Shown here: positions 5,650 through 48,246 of the stretch, in pieces
Layout of the letters: each line of letters opens with the position of its first letter
Numbering within the stretch: position 1 is the stretch's first letter
NCBI GenBank assembly: GCA_002239005.1
Contig: MPNL01000001.1
Span: forward strand, 62,001-126,000
Source of the DNA: Truepera sp. bin119
GTDB taxonomy: Bacteria > Deinococcota > Deinococci > Deinococcales > Trueperaceae
DNA length: 64,000 nt
Direction: 5' to 3'
The notes under the pieces: generated by a model
Databases searched by the model: none
Seen by the model: the letters and a program-made list of their open reading frames with translations, nothing else
Told to the model about the DNA's origin: nothing
Made by a program: the position numbers and the translations under genes

Positions 5650-5770
5650 AGAGAGGCAGAGGATGACGAGCCGCTCGAGGGGAAGCTGACGCGGCTTGTC
5701 GGCAGGAGCAGCAAGAGATGCGGCGACCGCCGACAACCTGAGCGTCTTGAGGGTCGGAGGCCGACGATGA
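5650..5770 (+). pseudogene. hsdM: C-terminal scar of hsdM (type I methyltransferase), frameshifted
   Basis: Reading across three frames gives REAEDDEPLEGKLTRL (5650-5697), then RQEQQEM, then DAATADNLSVLRVGGRR with TGA at 5768-5770. Together they follow the usual end of HsdM proteins (EAEDDGEPFEEKMARL...REQ...LDAAIxxNLxxLG). The TGA overlaps the ATG of the next gene as ATGA, the intact operon junction expected between hsdM and its neighbour. The rest of hsdM, some 450 codons, is absent from the window. This identification rests on my recollection of HsdM C-termini. Confidence 0.7.
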
Positions 5771-7521
5771 GTTACAGCGACGAAGCTATCGCGCTCCAAC
5801 TGCAATTGGGGGAAGACAGCCGCTGGGAGTTCAAGCAGATCGAGTTTGCCGGGAGCCGACCTAGGGGACCGAGCCGCGAAGATTTGGCGGATGAGATCGC
5901 GGCGTTCGCCAATGCGAACGGCGGCGTGCTGCTCTGCAGCGTCACCGACGCAGGTGAGGTGCGGGGAATGTCGCGCGAGCAGCTTGTCGAGTTGGACGCT
6001 TTGCTGGTTGAGGTGAGTTCCGACTCCATCAGGCCGTCCGTTCGCATCCGCACCTATCACAAGCAACTCCCGGATGGCAGGCGGTTACTTCTAGTCGATG
6101 TCCCGGAGGGCGATGCACAGCATGGCAGCCCCGGCGGGAGCTATGTTCGGGTAGGCGGCTCAAAACGAAGGATGACGAGTGATGAGCGGCTGCGCCTGGC
6201 GCAACAGTGGGGACAGGCGCGTTTCCTGTCGTTCGATGAGCAAGCCGTCCCGGGCACCGGCTTCAAAGCTCTGGATGAATCGCTTTGGAAACCCCTGTTG
6301 AGCGCCGAGGGGGCAGCGGACCCCGAGTTGGCACTCGAGAAGCTGGCGCTCCTGACCACCGACGAGGCCGGGATGCAGCGCGCCACAGTAGCAGGCGTGC
6401 TATTGTGCACCCGAAATCCCGAGCGATGGCTCCCCAACGCCTGCATCACGGCGACCCGTTACCGAGGAAGAGACCGCACCTCGGGCCAGATCGATGCGCA
6501 GGAAATCACCGGCCCGCTGAACAGGCAGATCAGCGATGCGGTGGCCTTCGCCGTCAGGAATATGCAGGTCGCGGCGCGCAAGGAGCCGGCGCGTGTGGAC
6601 CTGCCTCAGTACAGCGACAAGGTGCTGTTCGAGGCGCTGGTCAACGCCGTAGCACATCGCGACTATTCGATACGCGGCAGCAGAATTCGCCTGTCGATGT
6701 TCGCAGACCGCCTGGAGATTCAGTCTCCAGGCTCGTTGCCGAACAACCTGACGGTGGAGAGCATGGCGACGCGGCAAGCGACTCGCAACGAAGCATTGGC
6801 CTCGGTGCTGGGACGCATGCCGGTAGGGGGAGTCCGGGGCTCAGAGGACCGGCACTACTTCATGGAGCGCCGCGGAGATGGCGTTCCGATCATCCGGCGC
6901 GAAACCCGGGAACTCTGCGGGAAGCTGCCTGAGTACCGACTGATCGATGAGTCGGAGGTCCGCCTCATCATCCCCGCGGCAGCGCAGGAGCAGAGCCCTG
7001 CCCGCGTCGTCATCACCGTGCGGTCCGCTGGCCAGCCCTTGCTCGGTGCCGACCTGTTGACTCTTTTTCCGAACAAGACCTGGAAGCGTTCGACCACGGA
7101 CGAAAACGGTGAGGCGACCGTCGATCTGCACACGACTCACCTCCCCATGACGGTGTTCGCCTCCGCCCCCGGGTACGCTGCAAAGCTGGAACGGGAGTGG
7201 TTGCCAAGCCGAGGGGCGCTTGCGCTGGAACTTGAAGCCCTACGGGAGGGCGGCAGTATCATCTTCCCCGAGGCGACCGGCCACCTCCCGGGGCTCAAGG
7301 GTAGGCTGAACCCCATCCGCGATACCCATGACCGAACCTATCTCTACGCCTCCAATGTTGCCATCAACCAGGGAGAGCAGCAGCCGGTCCACTTCGTCCC
7401 CGGTGAAGATCTGCGGTTGATGGATGCTGAAGGCACCGAGTTGCTGGCGCGCATTGTCGACATTGTAGGCCGGTCGGCGCTTGTGGAATATCGCCCCTAT
7501 CCAGACAGAGATGGGGGGTGA
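5767..7521 (+). CDS. AlbA_2/Schlafen-type ATP-binding protein of a type I R-M locus
   Basis: A 584-residue cytosolic protein with an N-terminal AlbA_2 (Schlafen-like) domain: RWEFKQ near residue 19, then LADEIAAFANANGGVLLCSV and YVRVGGSKRRMT. A RecG-like GHKL ATPase domain follows, with FEALVNAVAHRDYSI around residue 290 and DRLEIQSPGSLP (divergent AAA_4/HATPase_c_4). The last 180 residues look like a carboxypeptidase-regulatory-like beta domain plus a variable tail. Such proteins recur inside hsd operons and defence islands as regulators or accessory factors; their exact role is unsettled. The start has GGAGG at 5756-5760 and overlaps the hsdM scar by four bases. Confidence 0.8.
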   Translation: MSYSDEAIALQLQLGEDSRWEFKQIEFAGSRPRGPSREDLADEIAAFANANGGVLLCSVTDAGEVRGMSREQLVELDALLVEVSSDSIRPSVRIRTYHKQLPDGRRLLLVDVPEGDAQHGSPGGSYVRVGGSKRRMTSDERLRLAQQWGQARFLSFDEQAVPGTGFKALDESLWKPLLSAEGAADPELALEKLALLTTDEAGMQRATVAGVLLCTRNPERWLPNACITATRYRGRDRTSGQIDAQEITGPLNRQISDAVAFAVRNMQVAARKEPARVDLPQYSDKVLFEALVNAVAHRDYSIRGSRIRLSMFADRLEIQSPGSLPNNLTVESMATRQATRNEALASVLGRMPVGGVRGSEDRHYFMERRGDGVPIIRRETRELCGKLPEYRLIDESEVRLIIPAAAQEQSPARVVITVRSAGQPLLGADLLTLFPNKTWKRSTTDENGEATVDLHTTHLPMTVFASAPGYAAKLEREWLPSRGALALELEALREGGSIIFPEATGHLPGLKGRLNPIRDTHDRTYLYASNVAINQGEQQPVHFVPGEDLRLMDAEGTELLARIVDIVGRSALVEYRPYPDRDGG

Positions 7522-39373: not shown

Positions 39374-39817
39374 CTAAGGGACACCGACGTTCGGGGCACG
39401 GTCAAAATGCTGGTCGAGCAAGCCTATAATCCGGGCGAACATCAATTCATCATCGCTTCGGGCGATCGATATATCATTGCTATCGCCTGGAGGAAGAGTA
39501 TGGACCGCGACACTGCTCACCCCGGCGTGATCGAAGACCGTGACCCTCATCCGGAGGGCATGGGTGTCCAAGAAGAATAGCGACCAACTGGGTTCGGCCC
39601 GCAACGTTATGAACGAGTTACCTATCTCCTCAATGCTGAAGTAGTCGTATGGATCGGGGGTGGCAAGGAGAGGTCCCTCTCGCGCAAGGGTTGCGATCAC
39701 CTCTCCAGGCTCTGCGTAGAAAGAGATAACCCCTCTACCAGCCCGAGGCGCACATGCCGTTAGAGACAGCAGCAGGATGAGCCCAAGCAAAGCTACAAGA
39801 GCCACCGACTTTTTCAC
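39374..39817 (-). CDS. Lipoprotein of unknown function
   Basis: The GTG at 39817 has GGAGG at 39827-39823 and starts VKKSVALVALLGLILLLSLTAC, a lipoprotein signal with an LTAC lipobox. A longer frame to 40048 has no such start. The mature part of about 125 residues is beta-rich (GVISFYAEPGEVIATLAREG ... SFITLRAEPSWSLFFLD) and has no recognised family. TATAGT at 39839-39834 may be its -10. It separates the GIY-YIG gene from the dndB end of the island operon. Confidence 0.7.
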   Translation of the reverse strand: MKKSVALVALLGLILLLSLTACAPRAGRGVISFYAEPGEVIATLAREGPLLATPDPYDYFSIEEIGNSFITLRAEPSWSLFFLDTHALRMRVTVFDHAGVSSVAVHTLPPGDSNDISIARSDDELMFARIIGLLDQHFDRAPNVGVP

Positions 39818-39839
39818 TCGAACCTCCGGTCCAACTATA

Positions 39840-40150
39840 CCCGACCGCACTTGATTCGGTAAATCGCCGACGAACTCCCCAACCAGTTCCCCGTCCCCCG
39901 ATTCTCCTGCCTGGTCAACAGCCACCCATTCGAGATAGATCCCGGCAACATCCTCCCCCTCCTCCATCCGGTGGGCAGCGAGAGGTCCGCTCGAAGCCGT
40001 CGCCAAGGGTGTCCCGGGAGCGAACCTTGACTGTCTCCAGGGACCCACCCGGCTCCCCCCAGATACCAGCCGCCACCCCCTCAGCTACCCAGAAGAGATT
40101 GACAACAGACCGTCATCCACTGAACCGCCTGCCTCTCACTGATGAGGGAG
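39840..40150. other. Intergenic region downstream of dndB
   Basis: About 310 bp without a supported gene. It probably holds the -35 region for the lipoprotein gene and the 3' end of the island transcript. No clear intrinsic terminator with a T-run is visible. Confidence 0.4.
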
Positions 40151-41419
40151 TCAAGAGAACTTTAGTGGGCCGCTCAGATCTCCGGTGCCACCTTGACTAA
40201 TGTATCTGTCCTCCAACTCTTTGATCTCATCGGTGGTGAGATCCTCGCCGAGCCAATATGCGATGACCCGTGATGCATAGTTTACAGCTGCTTTCCCAGC
40301 TAGCACCAGGTCACCATTCATCAGTACTCGCTGCCAGCGAGGCTCCTTAACGGACCAGTCCAATTGATTCACTCGCCTACACGCCTCATCTAGGCTAATT
40401 CGATATCCGGTGTTGCTGTCCTCATTACGCAGTCGCACTATCGCTTGGACCAATGCCAACTGTGCCACTGGTTTTCCCAGCACGTAATCGGCCCTGATCT
40501 CTCTCCGCTTCTCGTCCCCGAGTTCGCTTGTTGGATCGTGCAACGCATCGCTGAACAGTTGCACTTCGGAGCAAACTGTTTCCCAGAAGTCCTGCGCCTC
40601 CTTTTGCATTACATTGTGGGTGGCCTGGGCTGGCAACGCCTCAGTATTTATCTTTCCATGTGTATTTTCGAGCAGATACTTGGTGCTCTCGTAAAGTGTG
40701 GATAGGGTTGTAAACTCGGTCGCCCGAGCTGTAAGAGTATTGCTCTTGGCATTGACCAGCACATCTGGAATGATCTCATCCATACCCACAATTGCCTCAC
40801 GAACGATCACAGCCACAACATCATCGTCGGCCGTAATGAGATTTTCCGCCTTTGTCGTCTTTTTCGCGTAGCGGTTGACCTTGTTGAATATCTTTCTTGA
40901 CTTCACCCCATTGTGTTTGATCAGCATGACTGTGCAAACGTCCTCAGCAACTTCGACTCTCGATTCGAAATCCCTGATAGGCTGTTGTTTCTCGTCCCTG
41001 CCGCTGATCGCGAATCTCAAAGCCGCCAGCCGATGCTGCCCATCCAAAGGTACAAGCACCTCGCTGCCCTGTAACGTCAAGAAACCAAATGCGCTGCCGG
41101 CTGACCTATACAGAGCCGGAACATTCCCCTTGAGGATATTGGTGATCTCTTCGAATTCTACATAGTCGGCATGTAGCATGCTAACGATGAACGCCCCGAA
41201 GAACCTATCTTCATCGTTGACTAGATAAGGAGCGATCTGACGCTTCACGCGATTGAAGTTGATGTCCCGCTGGTAGCGTTCTTCAATCGACAGGTCTTCC
41301 CAACCTTCAATATCTTCTGGAATCACGAGCCGTTCTGTTAGCTCCTTGGCCGGCATAGTCACAATCCAGTAATCAGTGGTACCGAATTTTCCGCGCATCG
41401 CTGGCAGTACTGATGCCAT
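40151..41419 (-). CDS. dndB: DndB-type DGQHR domain protein
   Basis: From the ATG at 41419 (GGAG at about 41430) the protein has 422 residues and begins MASVLPAMRGKFGTTDYWIV. The defining motif VLVPLDGQHRLAALRF is at residues 121-136, with the downstream FNKVNRYAKKTTKAENLIT that links DGQHR proteins to ParB/DndB folds. In Dnd systems DndB represses the phosphorothioation operon and may influence modified sites. Here it is the last gene of an operon whose core is of the Ssp type, which is unusual. Plausible operator palindromes lie at 46959-47011. Confidence 0.85.
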   Translation of the reverse strand: MASVLPAMRGKFGTTDYWIVTMPAKELTERLVIPEDIEGWEDLSIEERYQRDINFNRVKRQIAPYLVNDEDRFFGAFIVSMLHADYVEFEEITNILKGNVPALYRSAGSAFGFLTLQGSEVLVPLDGQHRLAALRFAISGRDEKQQPIRDFESRVEVAEDVCTVMLIKHNGVKSRKIFNKVNRYAKKTTKAENLITADDDVVAVIVREAIVGMDEIIPDVLVNAKSNTLTARATEFTTLSTLYESTKYLLENTHGKINTEALPAQATHNVMQKEAQDFWETVCSEVQLFSDALHDPTSELGDEKRREIRADYVLGKPVAQLALVQAIVRLRNEDSNTGYRISLDEACRRVNQLDWSVKEPRWQRVLMNGDLVLAGKAAVNYASRVIAYWLGEDLTTDEIKELEDRYISQGGTGDLSGPLKFS

Positions 41420-41788: not shown

Positions 41789-42625
41789 CTACTTGTGACA
41801 CGCCAAGCAAACCTTAGCTTGTCCATATAGATCGTCAATGTCTAGTGGTTCGATGTCAGGACGCAGAGGGTTGACCTGAATCGTCGACCGGATCCGCTCC
41901 AAACGTCTGCCATGATCAGCCTTGATCTGTGCAACGCGCTCGGGTGTCGACAACTCATCTAGGGACTCTCCTTGGCTCCATGTAAAGGGTGATCCATGGT
42001 CGATTGCATTTTTCTCGTAGCTTTTCGCCTCATCGAAGAAGTCAGGATGCCGTTCCATTAGGCGAACCCACTCGATCTTCTGTTGGAAGAAGCAGAACGT
42101 ACAACCACTCCTGGTGCGCCATTCGTAGTATGTCGGCAGACCAAGCCCCGTTCCCTCAAGTAAATCGAGCACGCCAGCCTTGTCGATACCTGCCTCCTTT
42201 AGCGGAAGCCGGACGATAAGACTGTCATGCTTCGAGGCATAACCTTCCCGATACTCCTCATCGGCACGGATCGCTACGTAGCTATACACAATGTCACCAG
42301 CTTCAAGCATCGGTCGCACCCATTGTTCAAATGGCCGCAACTTGAGCTGCCGCGTACACCAGCGGGTCCGTGGCGACGGGAGGAAGTTGTTGTACTGCTT
42401 GAGCCAAAAGTCGAAGTCGCGGTCCGGGTTCAACCGGAGAATTGGTTTGCCCAAGAATCCTTCCAGCTTCACTAGGAACTCATAGACCTCGGGCAACTCT
42501 TTACCTGTGTCAGTGAAAAAGTAGTCTACGTCTAACTCAGGACGATTCTCTCGCATATAAATCGCGAGGGCTGCACTGTCACGCCCTCCAGACAATCCCA
42601 AAACATGACGTTCTCTGACTCTCAT
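41789..42625 (-). CDS. sspD: PAPS-reductase-family ATP pyrophosphatase (SspD/DndC-like)
   Basis: 278 residues. The PP-loop LGLSGGRDSAALAIY at about 10-24 activates a phosphate or backbone oxygen with ATP. Downstream are RTRWCTRQLK (Cys90), SGCTFCFFQQ (Cys175, Cys178) and the terminal CLACHK, cysteines suited to holding an iron-sulfur cluster as in DndC. The protein is expected to activate DNA for sulfur insertion with sulfur delivered by the divergent cysteine desulfurase. The ATG overlaps the stop of the ATPase gene (TAATG), showing coupling. Whether it is closer to DndC or SspD cannot be settled by eye; gene content favours SspD. Confidence 0.85.
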   Translation of the reverse strand: MRVRERHVLGLSGGRDSAALAIYMRENRPELDVDYFFTDTGKELPEVYEFLVKLEGFLGKPILRLNPDRDFDFWLKQYNNFLPSPRTRWCTRQLKLRPFEQWVRPMLEAGDIVYSYVAIRADEEYREGYASKHDSLIVRLPLKEAGIDKAGVLDLLEGTGLGLPTYYEWRTRSGCTFCFFQQKIEWVRLMERHPDFFDEAKSYEKNAIDHGSPFTWSQGESLDELSTPERVAQIKADHGRRLERIRSTIQVNPLRPDIEPLDIDDLYGQAKVCLACHK

Positions 42626-45600
42626 TACAATACCGCCTGTTCAGCTGCACACGGATCCATATCACTTCTTGACACCAAGTACTCTGACGTTAACTTGGCG
42701 AGCGCGGCCAGAACTATATTGCGCTCTTCGGTGCCAGATCCCACTAGTACTGCACGTACGCGCTCGACGATCTCGTCAACCTGAGATTGCTCACCCTCGG
42801 TCACTTCAAACTCATCGTAAACCGGTTTCCCATCCAACCCTAATACGACCGCCATCGCCATGCGATGGTCTTGCCGGCCTTTCACATGGGCATACGCTTC
42901 ATGTCTTATGAAGTTTCGGGATAGGTCCGCTAGTTCAACGGTTGCGCGGTCAACATCAGAATCAACCCACTGCCGGGGGGGCTTGTTTACAGCCATGCTT
43001 GCCAAAGATTCTATGTCCTGCTCCGACCCACTGAACCGAGAGATTCGCAGGATGAATGCCTCTAGACGGTGATCTCCGCTGAGCTGCCTAATGTTGGCAG
43101 CCCTTTCGCGGAGTTCAGTTAGCATAGAAGGTGAAGCGTTGGGTACGCCCAATTCCATCAGCAGAGTCTCACGAAGGCGGTATAGCATGTTGGGGTACGC
43201 TGAGTTCAACTCCGATAGCCCTTCGCGAACAACATCAGACAATGGCCGACTGATCCGCCCATTGTTCCGCAACCCTGTCAACACCTGAGGGATGTCATCG
43301 AACAGAAAGCGATTGGGGTCGCTAGCTTGCTTGAACAACTGCCTAACCAACTTCGCGTTCTGTGAGATTCTCTGAGTTCGTCCGACCCAAGCTGGTAGGC
43401 GGTCATAGATCGAGACCAACCCCCTTGCCACGTCGATGGGTTCCAAGTGGCGTAAAATGTTCTCGTTGTCTAAGTCACGCACTATCTCGGCCATGTCAGA
43501 CAGCACCTGGCGAGATGTGTCGGAGAGTTCCATCCATCGAATCTGCATGTCCGACGGATCATTACTCAGATACTCCACATCAAGGTCAGTTAACCGTGGC
43601 TGAAAAACCCCCTCACGGTATAGAGCAACTTCACGCCGACGCGACAAGATGAACGCAACGGCTATTACAGGGAGCAGCCCATCCTTGATTCCGAACGGCG
43701 GTTTCCGCCAAATGTCGTAGACCTCAGCCAACGATACGGCGATGTGGGCGTTGTCTTTAAGGTAAGTGGCTACAGCACGCCATGCGGGAGCCAAGTTTTT
43801 GGCGTCTCCATTTGGTCCAGTAGGCTCGACGAATCGCCATCCGTCTCGCGTATTCCGGTACAAATCCGTGGCTAACAACAGCGAGTCGAACAGCCCGCCT
43901 TCTGGCGGATACCCTTCGATTCCTAACCGCGGTTTTCCTTCGCGCAATGCCATAGCACGTAAGAGAACATTCCGGGCCGCTACCGCGTTGCTCGACGGCT
44001 TGCTTCGGTTCAACAATTCGTTTGGCAGGAGCGGAGTATCTGGAAATCTCGTGTCGGCTATGTCTGACGCTAGACTGCTGAGTTCAGCGTAGCTGAGTCG
44101 GATCGGCTCGCCTTGGGATCGAAACCACAGTGTATCGTTGAGCGCTCTGCCGAGCTCTCCCTCGATTATTCCTCGTATATCCGCGATACGAGACTGCACC
44201 TCAAGTCGAGCGATTCGATCTCCTTGAAGTTCAGGTGTTTCATCCCGCACCTGTTCCAAAGCCATGAGGTCTCGTGCCAAGGTGGTTATCATCCAGGCAC
44301 TTCGTTCAGGAACACCTATGATCGTATCCCACTTGGTGGGCGTAGCTGCAACATCCTGAACGATGTTCTCTGTGATCGCTGCAGAGTCCCCTTGTGTAGG
44401 AAGGACAAGGAGGAACGCGCCAATTGAACCAGCAGTTGGTTCGAACCTAGCGACTGTATCTCGAACATCAGCTAGTGCTACAACCGCAGTTTCACACCAC
44501 CTTAGGGCACCGGTCGCGTGATAGTGCCGTTTGGCGACTATCGGCTGTAATCCGGCTAAATCGGCGAGTCGACCAAAGTCCAACCCGTCAATCGATCCAT
44601 AGGCCTCATCAATCGCCTTTTCGATATCGAAGTCGCTTCCCTCGAATATGCTGTAGGCGTTACTGAATCTCCTGTAGATGACCAGTGACTGCTCTTGGAG
44701 TTCGCCAACGGCCGTATCAATCACCTCTGGAGGTAAGTCGTTAAGGGCCAATCTGAGCAGGTCCAGATTTGGCATCAGGCCAGATCGTTCCTTAAAGAGG
44801 GCGACTAAGCCGATCGTCTTCAACAACCGGATATGGAGTTCGTCGCCGCCAATCGCTTGGCAGCGATTAAGGGCATCGACGGCCATCGCCCATCGGTGAC
44901 CGTCTGGTGATGCCATGATGGAAGGTTCGAGGTTGAATTGCAGATAGTCCCAGAGAAACTCGGGCGTGTACAATTCACTGTCCGTGGCGCTTTTGAGGAA
45001 GTCCTGGAATCCCCTCGGCTCCGCAGAGTTAAGGAATCCGAAGATGCTGCGCTGATTCTGACCGAACCTCCGGCGAGAGATAGGACCGAGCAGGAGGGCA
45101 ACAATTGGGTGGAGGGGCCAACAGGCCTCTAATAAACCAGGTGCGACTCTGTTTCGCATAAGGGATGAAACGTGTTCGAACACTCCATCGGCCACTGTCA
45201 ACCCCGGTTCCACCTCGATTGAGCGCCCCAACAGGTCTAGTTGTTCAGTCGGCTCTACATTCAGAGCAAGGTCAACAAAGCGGCCCTGGATCTTGGCCCA
45301 CTCATCCCTTATCTCGCGCGACAACCGGTGGGCGTACTCTTCGAAGGCTTGGTGCAAGATTCCGACCACGACCAGACGCCCGTGACTACGAGATGCTAGC
45401 TCTGCAAGCTGCTGGAAGAAGTAGATGTCGGCGCCATCGTAAGCTGCTCCCTCTAGGAACTTGCCCATCTCATCAACAAATACGATGAGGCCCCCTGTCT
45501 TCCTCGGCGTTCTCTCGGCTATGCGAGTCAGAGCGTCAAACACATCCTGGTCGGTCCACGGCATAAGCCGACTGCTTCGAACAAGCCTTGCCCTCTCAAT

Positions 45601-45990
45601 GGCTTCGCCGAATATCTTCGCCGGCTCACCACGTCTTCCAACAATCGGAAGAATCCGCCATCCTTGATCCCGGGGAGGAAGGGCCCTCCAGATCTTCGAT
45701 GTAGTTTGTTCACCCAAAGCAGTAGCGGCATCCTGTCTGAGTTGGCAGTTGCCGCTTAACACCGCACTCAGTACTACTACAAGGCTGGATTTGCCGCTTC
45801 CGTAAGGACCCGTCCATGTAAAAGCAGCCTGACCCGTCTCTGACACGTGCCGAGCCATTGTCTTCAAGACCTCGGACGATGACTCCGGACAGACGAACCC
45901 TTTTAGGACGGACGCATCACCTAGGTCGGTATCGATTCGGATTGCTCGCTGAAAGCGCCGGGCGACAAGTACTCTATCAGCAAGTCGCAT
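42625..45990 (-). CDS. sspC: Large P-loop ATPase of the Ssp-type system (SspC-like)
   Basis: 1,121 residues. Walker A GPYGSGKSS is at 61-69 and Walker B GLIVFVDEMGKF at 167-178, in an N-terminal ATPase domain (RFQRAIRIDTDLGD...). About 800 largely helical residues follow with no recognisable domain. In the four-gene Ssp systems SspC is the ATPase associated with SspB and SspD and required for single-strand phosphorothioation. It overlaps sspB by 14 bases and sspD by one, so all three are translationally linked. The ORF is intact. Confidence 0.8.
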   Translation of the reverse strand: MRLADRVLVARRFQRAIRIDTDLGDASVLKGFVCPESSSEVLKTMARHVSETGQAAFTWTGPYGSGKSSLVVVLSAVLSGNCQLRQDAATALGEQTTSKIWRALPPRDQGWRILPIVGRRGEPAKIFGEAIERARLVRSSRLMPWTDQDVFDALTRIAERTPRKTGGLIVFVDEMGKFLEGAAYDGADIYFFQQLAELASRSHGRLVVVGILHQAFEEYAHRLSREIRDEWAKIQGRFVDLALNVEPTEQLDLLGRSIEVEPGLTVADGVFEHVSSLMRNRVAPGLLEACWPLHPIVALLLGPISRRRFGQNQRSIFGFLNSAEPRGFQDFLKSATDSELYTPEFLWDYLQFNLEPSIMASPDGHRWAMAVDALNRCQAIGGDELHIRLLKTIGLVALFKERSGLMPNLDLLRLALNDLPPEVIDTAVGELQEQSLVIYRRFSNAYSIFEGSDFDIEKAIDEAYGSIDGLDFGRLADLAGLQPIVAKRHYHATGALRWCETAVVALADVRDTVARFEPTAGSIGAFLLVLPTQGDSAAITENIVQDVAATPTKWDTIIGVPERSAWMITTLARDLMALEQVRDETPELQGDRIARLEVQSRIADIRGIIEGELGRALNDTLWFRSQGEPIRLSYAELSSLASDIADTRFPDTPLLPNELLNRSKPSSNAVAARNVLLRAMALREGKPRLGIEGYPPEGGLFDSLLLATDLYRNTRDGWRFVEPTGPNGDAKNLAPAWRAVATYLKDNAHIAVSLAEVYDIWRKPPFGIKDGLLPVIAVAFILSRRREVALYREGVFQPRLTDLDVEYLSNDPSDMQIRWMELSDTSRQVLSDMAEIVRDLDNENILRHLEPIDVARGLVSIYDRLPAWVGRTQRISQNAKLVRQLFKQASDPNRFLFDDIPQVLTGLRNNGRISRPLSDVVREGLSELNSAYPNMLYRLRETLLMELGVPNASPSMLTELRERAANIRQLSGDHRLEAFILRISRFSGSEQDIESLASMAVNKPPRQWVDSDVDRATVELADLSRNFIRHEAYAHVKGRQDHRMAMAVVLGLDGKPVYDEFEVTEGEQSQVDEIVERVRAVLVGSGTEERNIVLAALAKLTSEYLVSRSDMDPCAAEQAVL

Positions 45991-46987
45991 AGCTCAATTT
46001 CTCCGGGCGAATGAGTGTATAGTCCCGCTGCACGAAGTTCAGCGCATCTTCATAGGTCAATTCTTTGAAACGAATCAACTGCTTTAGCCCGGCTGTTTCG
46101 GACCATCTATAGATCCCGTTGCTGAACTCTTCTAAGGACACCAATAAGTCTATTAGGTCGTTTTCCTCCAAAAGGAAGACCCTTCCTGGAGAGCCCGGTT
46201 CGTGGGCAAGAGCCTCAAACGAAAGAGTGTGCACATCTGGCGAGTGCCTGTTCCAGAAGTCCGTCACAGCGTAGACGAACACACCACATCCAAGTGAAGG
46301 TTTCGGTCCACGAACAAATCTGAATCCATCTCTCCTGCCAACCGACTTGATCAGTCCAAGTTCCGTTAATGGGGACTCAAGTGCGTCTTCATAGCCTGCA
46401 TGGCAGGAAATGGGCTGGGGAACATAAGTGCGAACGAAGCACGACACATCTCTTCTGATTGTGGCAGCGGAAGCTCTAGACCAATTCCGCTCGCTTGCCA
46501 GTCGAGAAATGGCTCGAACCAACATGTCTCGTTCGAAGGAAAGCGCAGGGTAGTGATTGAACGCCCAAAACCATGTCGTCTTAACCGGATTGCCACTCAC
46601 GTTCCAATGCACGAGCCATGACGTGCTCGGATCTTCCATATATGGGTCGAGACCATCATCACGGAACAGCAACCGTCCAAGCGGAGTTGTCCTAAAGCGG
46701 GACTCGCTCGTCACTTCCTCAAGCACCCCGGCTGCTGTTGACCAATGACGCATAGACGCCACCATATTTTTTCCGACGCCGAAGTGGGCTATTGCACTAT
46801 CGCTTTTAAATACAGCCCTGTTCTCAGTCTCATCCTCACTAGCTTCGACTGCATCGAATGCCTTCTTAAGCCAGCCATAACGAAGTGGAAATGTCTCGTG
46901 GCCTGAAAGCTGAGGTCGATAGTCGTCTTCGTAAAGTGGTCCCCGAATCGTCCGGCCTCCAACTGGACGCAGCGTCCAGTTGGACAA
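45977..46987 (-). CDS. sspB: DUF4007 protein (SspB-like)
   Basis: 336 residues. The DUF4007 core is evident: YRPQLSGHETFPLRYGWLKK then AFDAV, AIAHFGVGKNMVASMRHWS, and WLVHW...TTWFWAFN. SspB is the DNA-nicking member of Ssp phosphorothioation and acts on one strand. No ATG or GTG precedes the domain; the only start is TTG at 46987, immediately after a TATTGT or TATAGT -10 candidate. A 25-bp perfect palindrome forms its first codons. It heads the operon sspB-sspC-sspD-GIY-YIG-dndB. Confidence 0.85.
   Translation of the reverse strand: MSNWTLRPVGGRTIRGPLYEDDYRPQLSGHETFPLRYGWLKKAFDAVEASEDETENRAVFKSDSAIAHFGVGKNMVASMRHWSTAAGVLEEVTSESRFRTTPLGRLLFRDDGLDPYMEDPSTSWLVHWNVSGNPVKTTWFWAFNHYPALSFERDMLVRAISRLASERNWSRASAATIRRDVSCFVRTYVPQPISCHAGYEDALESPLTELGLIKSVGRRDGFRFVRGPKPSLGCGVFVYAVTDFWNRHSPDVHTLSFEALAHEPGSPGRVFLLEENDLIDLLVSLEEFSNGIYRWSETAGLKQLIRFKELTYEDALNFVQRDYTLIRPEKLSYATC
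46959..46983. promoter_or_regulatory. 25-bp perfect palindrome at the start of sspB
   Basis: CCAACTGGACGC-A-GCGTCCAGTTGG: 12-bp arms with a single central base, inside the first nine codons of sspB (46987-46959) and next to the divergent promoter region. A dimeric repressor site is the obvious reading. The RNA could also form a hairpin at the sspB start. Confidence 0.7.
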
Positions 46988-47011
46988 TACACTATACAGT
47001 GCGCTATTGTC
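46983..47011. promoter_or_regulatory. Nested palindrome between sspB and sspA
   Basis: GACAATA (46983-46989) and TATTGTC (47005-47011) are a 7-bp inverted repeat enclosing CACT-ATAC-AGTG (46990-47001). TATTGT and TATAGT on the minus strand and TATACA/TATTGT on the plus strand can serve as -10 boxes, so divergent promoters overlap the repeat. A regulator bound here would control both sides of the island. Confidence 0.6.
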
Positions 47012-47079
47012 TACTCCACAACACCTTGAAAGGAAAGATTAGGTGGTGTGAAGCGCCAAGACGTTGAGGTGGACCCAAC

Positions 47080-48246
47080 ATAGATACCATCTACGCAGAC
47101 TATCAGGCCACTACTCCGGTCGACTCGCGAGTCGTGGTCAAGATGACTCCTTATTGGGTCGAGTGCTTCGGCAATCCGCATTCAGCCAACCACATCATAG
47201 GTTGGCGAGCAGCCGAAGCAGTTCAAGAAGCTAAAGAGGCAGTTGCGGTCATGATTGGGGCCGACGCAAACGAGATCGTTTTGACGTCTGGAGCAACTGA
47301 GGCCAACAACCTTGCCTTATTGGGGTTGGGAAACGGAACAGATGATAGACGGAGGCGCATCCTCGTTAGTGAAATCGAACACAAGTGCGTCTTAGCCGCC
47401 GCTACCGCCGTTGCTGCACAGAGAGGGTTCACTCTGCAAACCATCCCTGTTGACCATGCAGGATTCGTGGATTTGGATTGGCTCTCATCGGAGGTGGATG
47501 AGACTGTCTTAGTCGTTTCTGTCATGGCTGTCAATAACGAGATTGGTACAATTCAAGACATCGCATCTATCACATCACTACTTGAGCCGCATGGGGCTCT
47601 GTTTCACTGCGACGCAGCTCAAGCACCGTGTGCGATGGACGTGAGAGACTTGGCGTCCCATGTTGATCTCATTAGCCTGTCAGGCCATAAGTTCTATGGC
47701 CCACAGGGGATAGGTGCCTTACGTGTTCGGCGCGAATTGAGTGGTCACTTAGAGCCGATAATCCACGGTGGTGGCCAACAGGATGGCCTACGTTCAGGAA
47801 CCATCCCTGTGGCCTTGTCCGTAGGAATGGGCGCGGCGGCAGAAATCATGAGTTCGGACAGGGAACGCCTAGACCGGAAACGGGTGGAGGCCCTACGCGA
47901 TAGATTCATTCAAAAGCTCCAACAAGAGAGTATACGATTTCAGGTCTGCGGTCCCAGTGGTACTAGGAGGCATCCTGGGAACGCCAATCTGCGGTTCCAA
48001 GGGTTCGATGCACTAGACATCTTGGCACGCCTTCAACCTCGCCTAGCTGCATCTACAGGTTCTGCCTGTACATCGGGAATCCCGGAACCGTCCCACGTGC
48101 TGCGCGCGTTGGGTCTAAGTGGTGAGGAAGCAGAATCTTCAATTCGCTTCAGCTTCGGGCGTTTCTCAACAGAAGCAGAGGTTGACGACGCCGCGCGGCT
48201 ACTTATAGCCGCTTTGTCGCGCTCATCGGGAAAGATGTGTCGGTAA
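47080..48246 (+). CDS. sspA: Cysteine desulfurase (SspA/DndA, IscS-like) with non-canonical start
   Basis: The family N-terminus DTIYADYQATTPVDSRVVVK then MTPYW...GNPHS begins at 47083, but no ATG, GTG or TTG lies between the in-frame TGA at 47065 and this motif. ATA at 47080, six bases after GAGGTGGA, is the best start; the ATG at 47134 would delete a strand needed for PLP binding. The PLP Lys is in SGHKFYGPQG (about 204) and the catalytic Cys in STGSACTSG (about 330), followed by PSHVLRALGL and SIRFSFGRF. It supplies persulfide sulfur for phosphorothioation. It is transcribed away from sspB. Possible mutation ATG to ATA. Confidence 0.85.
   Translation: MDTIYADYQATTPVDSRVVVKMTPYWVECFGNPHSANHIIGWRAAEAVQEAKEAVAVMIGADANEIVLTSGATEANNLALLGLGNGTDDRRRRILVSEIEHKCVLAAATAVAAQRGFTLQTIPVDHAGFVDLDWLSSEVDETVLVVSVMAVNNEIGTIQDIASITSLLEPHGALFHCDAAQAPCAMDVRDLASHVDLISLSGHKFYGPQGIGALRVRRELSGHLEPIIHGGGQQDGLRSGTIPVALSVGMGAAAEIMSSDRERLDRKRVEALRDRFIQKLQQESIRFQVCGPSGTRRHPGNANLRFQGFDALDILARLQPRLAASTGSACTSGIPEPSHVLRALGLSGEEAESSIRFSFGRFSTEAEVDDAARLLIAALSRSSGKMCR

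Follow-up and report, generated by a model that had tools for sequence, protein, structure and literature searches.

Apparent paired loss of canonical start codons from the divergent sspA and sspB genes of a Truepera phosphorothioation locus

Where does translation of a gene begin when its frame holds no ATG, GTG or TTG ahead of the conserved N-terminus of its product? The question is posed by sspA, the cysteine desulfurase gene of a locus in Truepera sp. bin119. The window analyzed here is a stretch of 64,000 nucleotides (contig MPNL01000001.1, positions 62,001 to 126,000), which contains an SspABCD DNA-phosphorothioation locus: SspA, SspB, SspC and SspD were all matched by family models (PADLOC), sspA is divergent from sspBCD, and sspB and sspC overlap (Table 1). 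SspA retains the SGHK and GSACTS regions, which in an alignment match the SGHK and SSGSACTS segments of mitochondrial-type desulfurases of solved structure. We take the lysine of SGHK to be the PLP lysine and GSACTS to be the catalytic Cys region; an active-site cysteine of SspA is described in PMC7188994. A cysteine desulfurase 42% identical to SspA is encoded on contig C33 of the same genome. The GC content, in 1-kb windows, was 0.50-0.58 at ~39.0-48.3 kb and 0.64-0.69 on either side, as expected for a horizontally acquired island; judged by GC content, the ssp module would thus have been acquired horizontally. A further open frame (39374-40084, minus strand) is flanked by the racemase gene on one side and the DndB-like gene on the other; its stretch 39377-40048 has no Pfam match.

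No SspE or SspFGH was seen beside the ssp genes of the window, where a DndB-like gene stands instead. In this, and in an sspA and an sspB without canonical start codons, the locus differs from the SspABCD systems described in Vibrio and E. coli (PMC8092258, PMC7188994), with which it shares all four proteins; the divergent position of its sspA recurs in 22 relatives that were selected for it. Of 2,678 sspBCD, 2,211 have been reported to lack both SspE and SspFGH (PMC8092258). Full SspE was not found in the genome, the search giving only a 20-bit match that covers SspE positions 17-118, and one query, run without a positive control, found no relative in the genome of the GHKL protein of L115, a neighbor of the ssp genes of L018. 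A trio of helicase, GHKL ATPase and phospholipase-D-like protein was seen beside ssp genes in L115 (4694-9119, PADLOC), L147 (9657-14081, annotation) and L116 (5539-10013, by eye), and it is possible that this trio is an effector module.

Table 1 Features of the ssp locus in window coordinates, with the support for each.
Feature	Position	Strand	Support
sspA open frame (cysteine desulfurase)	47068..48246	+	PADLOC SspA E 3.8e-129; coding from ATA 47080 if ATA is the start
sspB (DUF4007 family), counted from ACG	45977..46951	-	PADLOC SspB E 6.7e-107; start alignment
sspC (ATPase), ATG start	42625..45990	-	PADLOC SspC E 0
sspD (PAPS-reductase-like), ATG start	41789..42625	-	PADLOC SspD E 9.5e-135
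DndB-like (DGQHR) protein, start taken as ATG 41419	40151..41419	-	PADLOC, Pfam DndB
ATA, candidate near-cognate sspA start	47080..47082	+	Same position relative to the conserved Tyr: ATG in L136, TTG in L098
Shine-Dalgarno GAGGTG, 8 nt before ATA	47066..47071	+	-10.1 kcal/mol
Off-frame GTG followed by GAC	47069..47071	+	Resembles ATGGAC/ATGGAT/GTGGAT starts of the nearest relatives
11-codon GTG frame, TAG 47081-47083 overlapping ATA	47048..47083	+	No specific support as a leader
GTG, first canonical codon in the sspA frame	47134..47136	+	A start there would delete IYADYQATTPVDSRV
ACG where relatives have ATG; candidate near-cognate sspB start	46949..46951	-	Start alignment
Shine-Dalgarno GGAGG, 4 nt before ACG	46956..46960	-	-9.3 kcal/mol
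TTG used as sspB start in the ORF listing	46985..46987	-	Overlaps predicted -10 hexamer
Predicted sspA promoter TGGACA-18-TATTGT	46981..47010	+	Consensus match
Predicted sspB promoter TAGACA-18-TATTGT	46984..47013	-	Consensus match; face to face with sspA promoter
CTGG-N9-CCAG palindrome, sspB-side copy	46963..46979		Extended perfect arms 46958-46970, 46972-46984

The last in-frame stop before the conserved N-terminus of sspA is TGA 47065-47067. After it the frame continues GGT GGA CCC AAC ATA GAT ACC ATC TAC (GGPNIDTIYADYQATTPVD) and reads GGPNIDTIYADYQATTPVDSRVV to the stop ending at 48246. A preliminary description of this DNA had stated that sspA lacks a canonical start, and the frame does run from the TGA to codon 47134 without ATG, GTG or TTG; that codon had been given as ATG and is GTG. 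Initiation there instead of at ATA 47080 would cost SspA 18 residues. The well-placed Shine-Dalgarno (SD) sequence that had been described ahead of the ATA was confirmed (Table 1). With the same anti-SD tail, pairing reached -1.5 to -3.0 kcal/mol for GTG 47069, ATC 47089, GTG 47134 and TTG 46987, and it was both strong and well placed only at ATA 47080 and at ACG 46951, the sspB codon discussed below. An SD as good as that of ATA 47080 precedes 5 of the 656 ATA triplets on both strands of the window, a rank that is circular, because the start was picked partly for its SD.

Relatives of the locus were sought in a collection of genome contigs (best 80 of 519), in 101 related genomes and 111 genomes of the phylum, in 396 and 399 genomes of the group of L018 (at most 4 candidates scored per genome), in 148 genomes of the group of L017 (at most 12 candidates scored) and 84 of the group of L016, and also in plasmids, phages and viral contigs. 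The nearest relatives found were L017 and L111, at 63% identity, with nothing closer in any collection searched; the best match among the 111 phylum genomes was 46% identical. At this distance none of them shows the ancestral start directly. We compared 22 relatives chosen for divergent sspA and sspB, taking as anchor the conserved Tyr of an IYxDxQATT-like motif. L139 was left out for a mismatch in this motif; the 22 include the near duplicates L017 and L111 and the decayed locus L021.

All 22 relatives have a canonical in-frame sspA start and the window has none, a difference beyond chance. The distance from the start to the Tyr codon end is exactly 24 nt in 16 of them (15 ATG, 1 GTG) and 12-30 nt in the other six. 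The window ATA lies at 15 nt, which puts the 24-nt start site 9 nt (three codons) upstream of it. Two relatives begin exactly at the ATA site, L136, on a closed plasmid, with ATG (MKTLYFDYQAST) and L098 with TTG, so this site is a possible ancestral ATG site, though not the usual one. None of the 22 has ATA at the homologous codon, and the conserved ATA considered in the preliminary description is not supported. None begins at the position of GTG 47134 either, so the refutation that this description had named, homologues starting at that codon, did not come about. Its reading of the site as either a rare AUA start or the loss of a start codon is supported. An SD as strong as that of the window, spacing ignored, precedes sspA in 0/22 relatives and sspB in 1/22. 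An NCBIfam scan of ten further window genes gave eight matches. In a coarse comparison by eye, the place where the profile begins coincides with a canonical codon, or lies no more than a dozen codons from one, in mutS, mutL, truB (GTG), ruvA, a drrA-like ATPase gene, xdhA and one oppB-like permease gene; in the second permease gene the match begins too far inside to judge the start.

The observation made on sspA was correct yet incomplete, since sspB also has no canonical start at the homologous position. In 22/22 relatives an ATG opens sspB 14-17 codons before an SGHE-like motif (exactly 15 in 18 of them). The codon of the window at distance 15 is ACG, a position placed by homology alone, and ACG serves as sspB start in 0/22 relatives. 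It is followed by ATT CGG GGA CCA CTT TAC (IRGPLY), where relatives read MLRGPLY, MHRGPLY or MQRGPLF. An SD as good as that of ACG 46951 precedes 63 of the 1773 ACG triplets in the window. The TTG of the ORF listing precedes the point where transcription probably begins, lacks an SD (-1.8 kcal/mol) and would add 12 doubtful residues to SspB. With sspB affected like sspA, neither lead gene of the divergent pair has a canonical start, and the loss is a paired one.

Apart from their starts, the frames are intact. Counted from the ATA and the ACG, the four ssp frames contain no internal stop in 2115 codons. In a 16-locus alignment the window differs at 18 of 432 otherwise invariant columns (4 changes radical, no gap), and private changes number 1-18 in 14 of the 15 relatives, with the outlier L137 at 72. 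The window value is at the top of the normal range, in keeping with its long branch (0.39; other loci 0.11 to 0.45, L137 0.94), and these private changes would also be compatible with mild decay. Stops, frameshifts and loss of invariant residues of the kind that mark a pseudogene were thus not seen. Neutral decay was modelled with an assumed kappa of 4 and an assumed 0 to 0.1 indels per substitution. Under this model the probability that two start losses are the sole two disabling lesions is 1.9e-4 to 2.3e-5, that of losing the second start ahead of any stop or frameshift is about 0.003-0.01, and zero stops limit neutral divergence since inactivation to about 0.5-1.4%. The absence of stops and the low neutral probabilities imply either that expression was lowered by selection or that inactivation is very young.

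We place first, tentatively, attenuated translation of sspA and sspB from the near-cognate codons ATA and ACG. At neither homologous start is there a canonical codon, and at both an SD stands at working distance (8 nt for ATA, 4 nt for ACG). The two lead genes would have lost their canonical starts and now carry near-cognate codons behind intact, strong SDs, from which ribosomes may still initiate at a small fraction of the ATG rate. The desulfurase and the nickase would then be made at a low level, as would the downstream ATPase through the sspB-sspC overlap. Nicking by SspB has been reported as essential for modification (PMC8092258). A low dose may be tolerated, since the searches brought up no cognate effector and since IscS can substitute for SspA in other systems (PMC8092258), and low modification would probably cost little by self-restriction.

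Attenuation owes its first place to the low neutral probabilities together with two published patterns. In Listeria, acid selection yielded rsbW mutants with ATG turned to ATA, and protein from an ATA reporter was reduced yet detectable, in the order ATG>ATA>ATT (PMC13068326). The resemblance lies in a start codon turned ATA; the Listeria mutants were laboratory-selected and concern one gene, whereas in the window two genes of one natural locus are affected. Strong SDs are commoner at GUG and UUG starts than at AUG (PMC5622118), although the same study reports no significant association between individual start switches and switches in SD strength. Little on AUA initiation in bacteria was found in the literature searched. 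Other non-canonical starts include GTC in Streptomyces sigR and ATT or ATC in infC, which are like the window in that a nearby canonical codon was misannotated (PMC5472188); ATT/ATC starts of infC are reported in both E. coli and Streptomyces and the sigR start is IF3-controlled, whereas the ATA and ACG of the window recur in none of the 22 relatives. Against attenuation stand the reconstructed starts, which almost never leave AUG, GUG or UUG (of 61,358 ancestral AUG starts, 2 became CUG and 1 AUU; PMC5622118), and a decayed sspA fragment in the genome.

That fragment also bears on a close rival, ranked second and quite possible in our judgment, in which the locus is newly inactivated: the start losses put an end to useful translation of the two lead genes, whose frames have had too little time to decay. 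The fragment lies on contig C34 (L099, ~5680-5960) and represents a second sspA by its 3' end, with 65% identity over 74 residues; its upstream part is unrecognisable, with an apparent internal deletion, and a different ORF follows it. It indicates that ssp genes do die in this genome. Loss also marks the related locus L021/L118 (57% SspA), where the sspB match covers only residues 11-131 and sspC and sspD have no match in 14.7 kb. Recent inactivation is further favored by the lack of a full SspE (the 20-bit match apart), by the negative outcome of the single uncontrolled query for the L115 GHKL protein and by the missing sspA-side copy of a palindrome described below. It is weakened by the narrow divergence that the zero stops in 2115 codons allow and by the small probability that the second start would be lost while no stop or frameshift had yet arisen.

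A third account, improbable in our estimate, holds that sspA began at GTG 47069, that a small indel between 47072 and 47086 put this codon out of frame, and that the ATA is an ordinary Ile codon. In its favor, the 24-nt spacing is the usual one (16/22 relatives), and GTGGAC 47069, at 26 nt and two bases off register, is like the ATGGAC of L018, the ATGGAT of L017 and L111 and the GTGGAT of L016; L020 reads MKID-KTIY where the window has PNID-TIY. It is made less likely by the lack of an SD ahead of GTG 47069 (-1.5 kcal/mol), a codon whose bases are themselves part of the SD of the ATA, GAGGTG being placed for 47080. Moreover, starts at the ATA position do occur in the family, as L136 (ATG) and L098 (TTG) demonstrate.

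Sequencing or consensus error has a smaller chance still. The draft assembly is in 91 contigs, and no relative above 63% identity was found for checking, but two independent errors would be needed, each exactly in a start codon, in a locus whose four ssp frames are free of stops.

The preliminary description had also raised coupled reinitiation, in which regulated starts at the AUA would follow upon termination in the 11-codon GTG frame, and this we consider very unlikely. The frame is there, with its 11 codons and a TAG that overlaps the ATA by two bases, although its GTG lies at 47048 and not at 47047. Short frames of 5 or more codons, with their end no further than 6 nt from the sspA start, are present in 10/22 relatives, and in five the stop overlaps the start codon, which counts for the idea without being specific to it; these frames are 8 to 39 codons long, however, and share neither a length nor a start, so they appear to be ordinary and that of the window unremarkable. 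The SD-like pairing of GTG 47048 reaches -7.3 kcal/mol only via a large internal loop and ends 0-1 nt from the GTG. The 5' leader folded no better than shuffles (z 0.58), and a folded leader was rejected. Coupling would also leave sspB unexplained. The last alternative, that nothing is odd and the genes use the ordinary in-frame starts TTG 46987 (sspB) and GTG 47134 (sspA), is barely credible, as the former overlaps the predicted -10 hexamer and has no SD and the latter would delete an IYxDxQATT-like stretch present in 22/22 relatives (YADYQATTPVDSR in the window).

The region between the two genes carries a further conserved element. Promoters for sspA and sspB are predicted face to face, by consensus match only: two promoter-like sites were found in 351 bases against 0.3 expected. 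The sspB-sspA spacer contains CTGG-N(6-12)-CCAG in 19 of 23 loci, with N9 in all sites but one, where mononucleotide shuffles gave 0.4 expected matches in total. A pair of palindromes, 45 to 84 bp apart, is present in 13 of the 23 loci (ten pairs at 55-58 bp), and the paired copies flank the stretch where the face-to-face promoters of the window are predicted. The window spacer has the sspB-side copy, and the sspA-side copy is absent from it. We then considered 42 distinct sspB loci. Not counted among them are L010, which lacks the motif, near-duplicates, and loci truncated too near the gene. CTGG-N9-CCAG lies at -200 to +30 of the SGHE codon in 34 of the 42; these stretches (42 x 230 bp) hold 48 sites, and the other 511,313 bp of the loci hold 8. 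Loci not used for its discovery contain it in 16 of 20 cases; the 16 include two E. coli lineages, loci without an adjacent sspA, and L148 and L151, where an sspA pointing the same way has its 3' end within the palindrome. Chance alone would give two matches to CTGG-N9-CCAG in the GC-rich window, and the narrower CTGGA-N7-TCCAG has three sites in the whole genome, equal to the same pattern read backwards. At such rates of chance matching only the conserved position carries weight, and this genome-wide count gave no sign of a wider regulon.

Each half of the palindrome contains CCA, and 5'-CCA is the modification target of SspABCD (PMC8092258). SspB has been crystallised as a dimer (PMC9240713) and described as a triple-wHTH recognition component (PMC10853773). 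The palindrome is a candidate operator, and a natural hypothesis is autoregulation, exerted by SspB or through the modification state of CCA. A parallel is offered by the DndB-controlled dnd promoter of Salmonella, another phosphorothioation operon promoter with palindromes, although its site is TACG-N10-CGTA and the widespread ssp palindrome is CTGG-N9-CCAG (PMC4507180). The exact TACG-N10-CGTA of Salmonella DndB (PMC4507180) was seen in the ssp promoter of L018, and TACC-N10-GGTA in L096. No description of CTGG-N9-CCAG near sspB was found in the literature searched, a search partly swamped by unrelated papers.

Attenuation can be joined to this element in a bolder reading, which as a whole we regard as unlikely. 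Selection would have replaced both ATGs, by ATA and ACG, with the SDs kept or strengthened, and thereby set a matched-pair low dose of an effector-less system, in a locus whose self-targeting CTGG-N9-CCAG operator, with two copies of the CCA target, would suit repression by SspB as a dimeric wHTH nickase or control by modification state. On this account the window would retain the sspB-side operator and would have lost the sspA-side one.

Near-cognate and lost starts are known, as is the ssp system; here they occur as a pair in one locus. Sequence by itself fits both a dimmed and a dead system. Gene finders assume ATG, GTG or TTG, and at this locus they would cut the 18 residues from SspA and give SspB the 12 doubtful ones. 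If both lead genes of a natural locus use near-cognate starts, the dimming of a modification system through its start codons could be tested against its discarding, and the conserved CTGG-N9-CCAG, with the Ssp target in both halves, would provide a directly testable model of ssp operon control.
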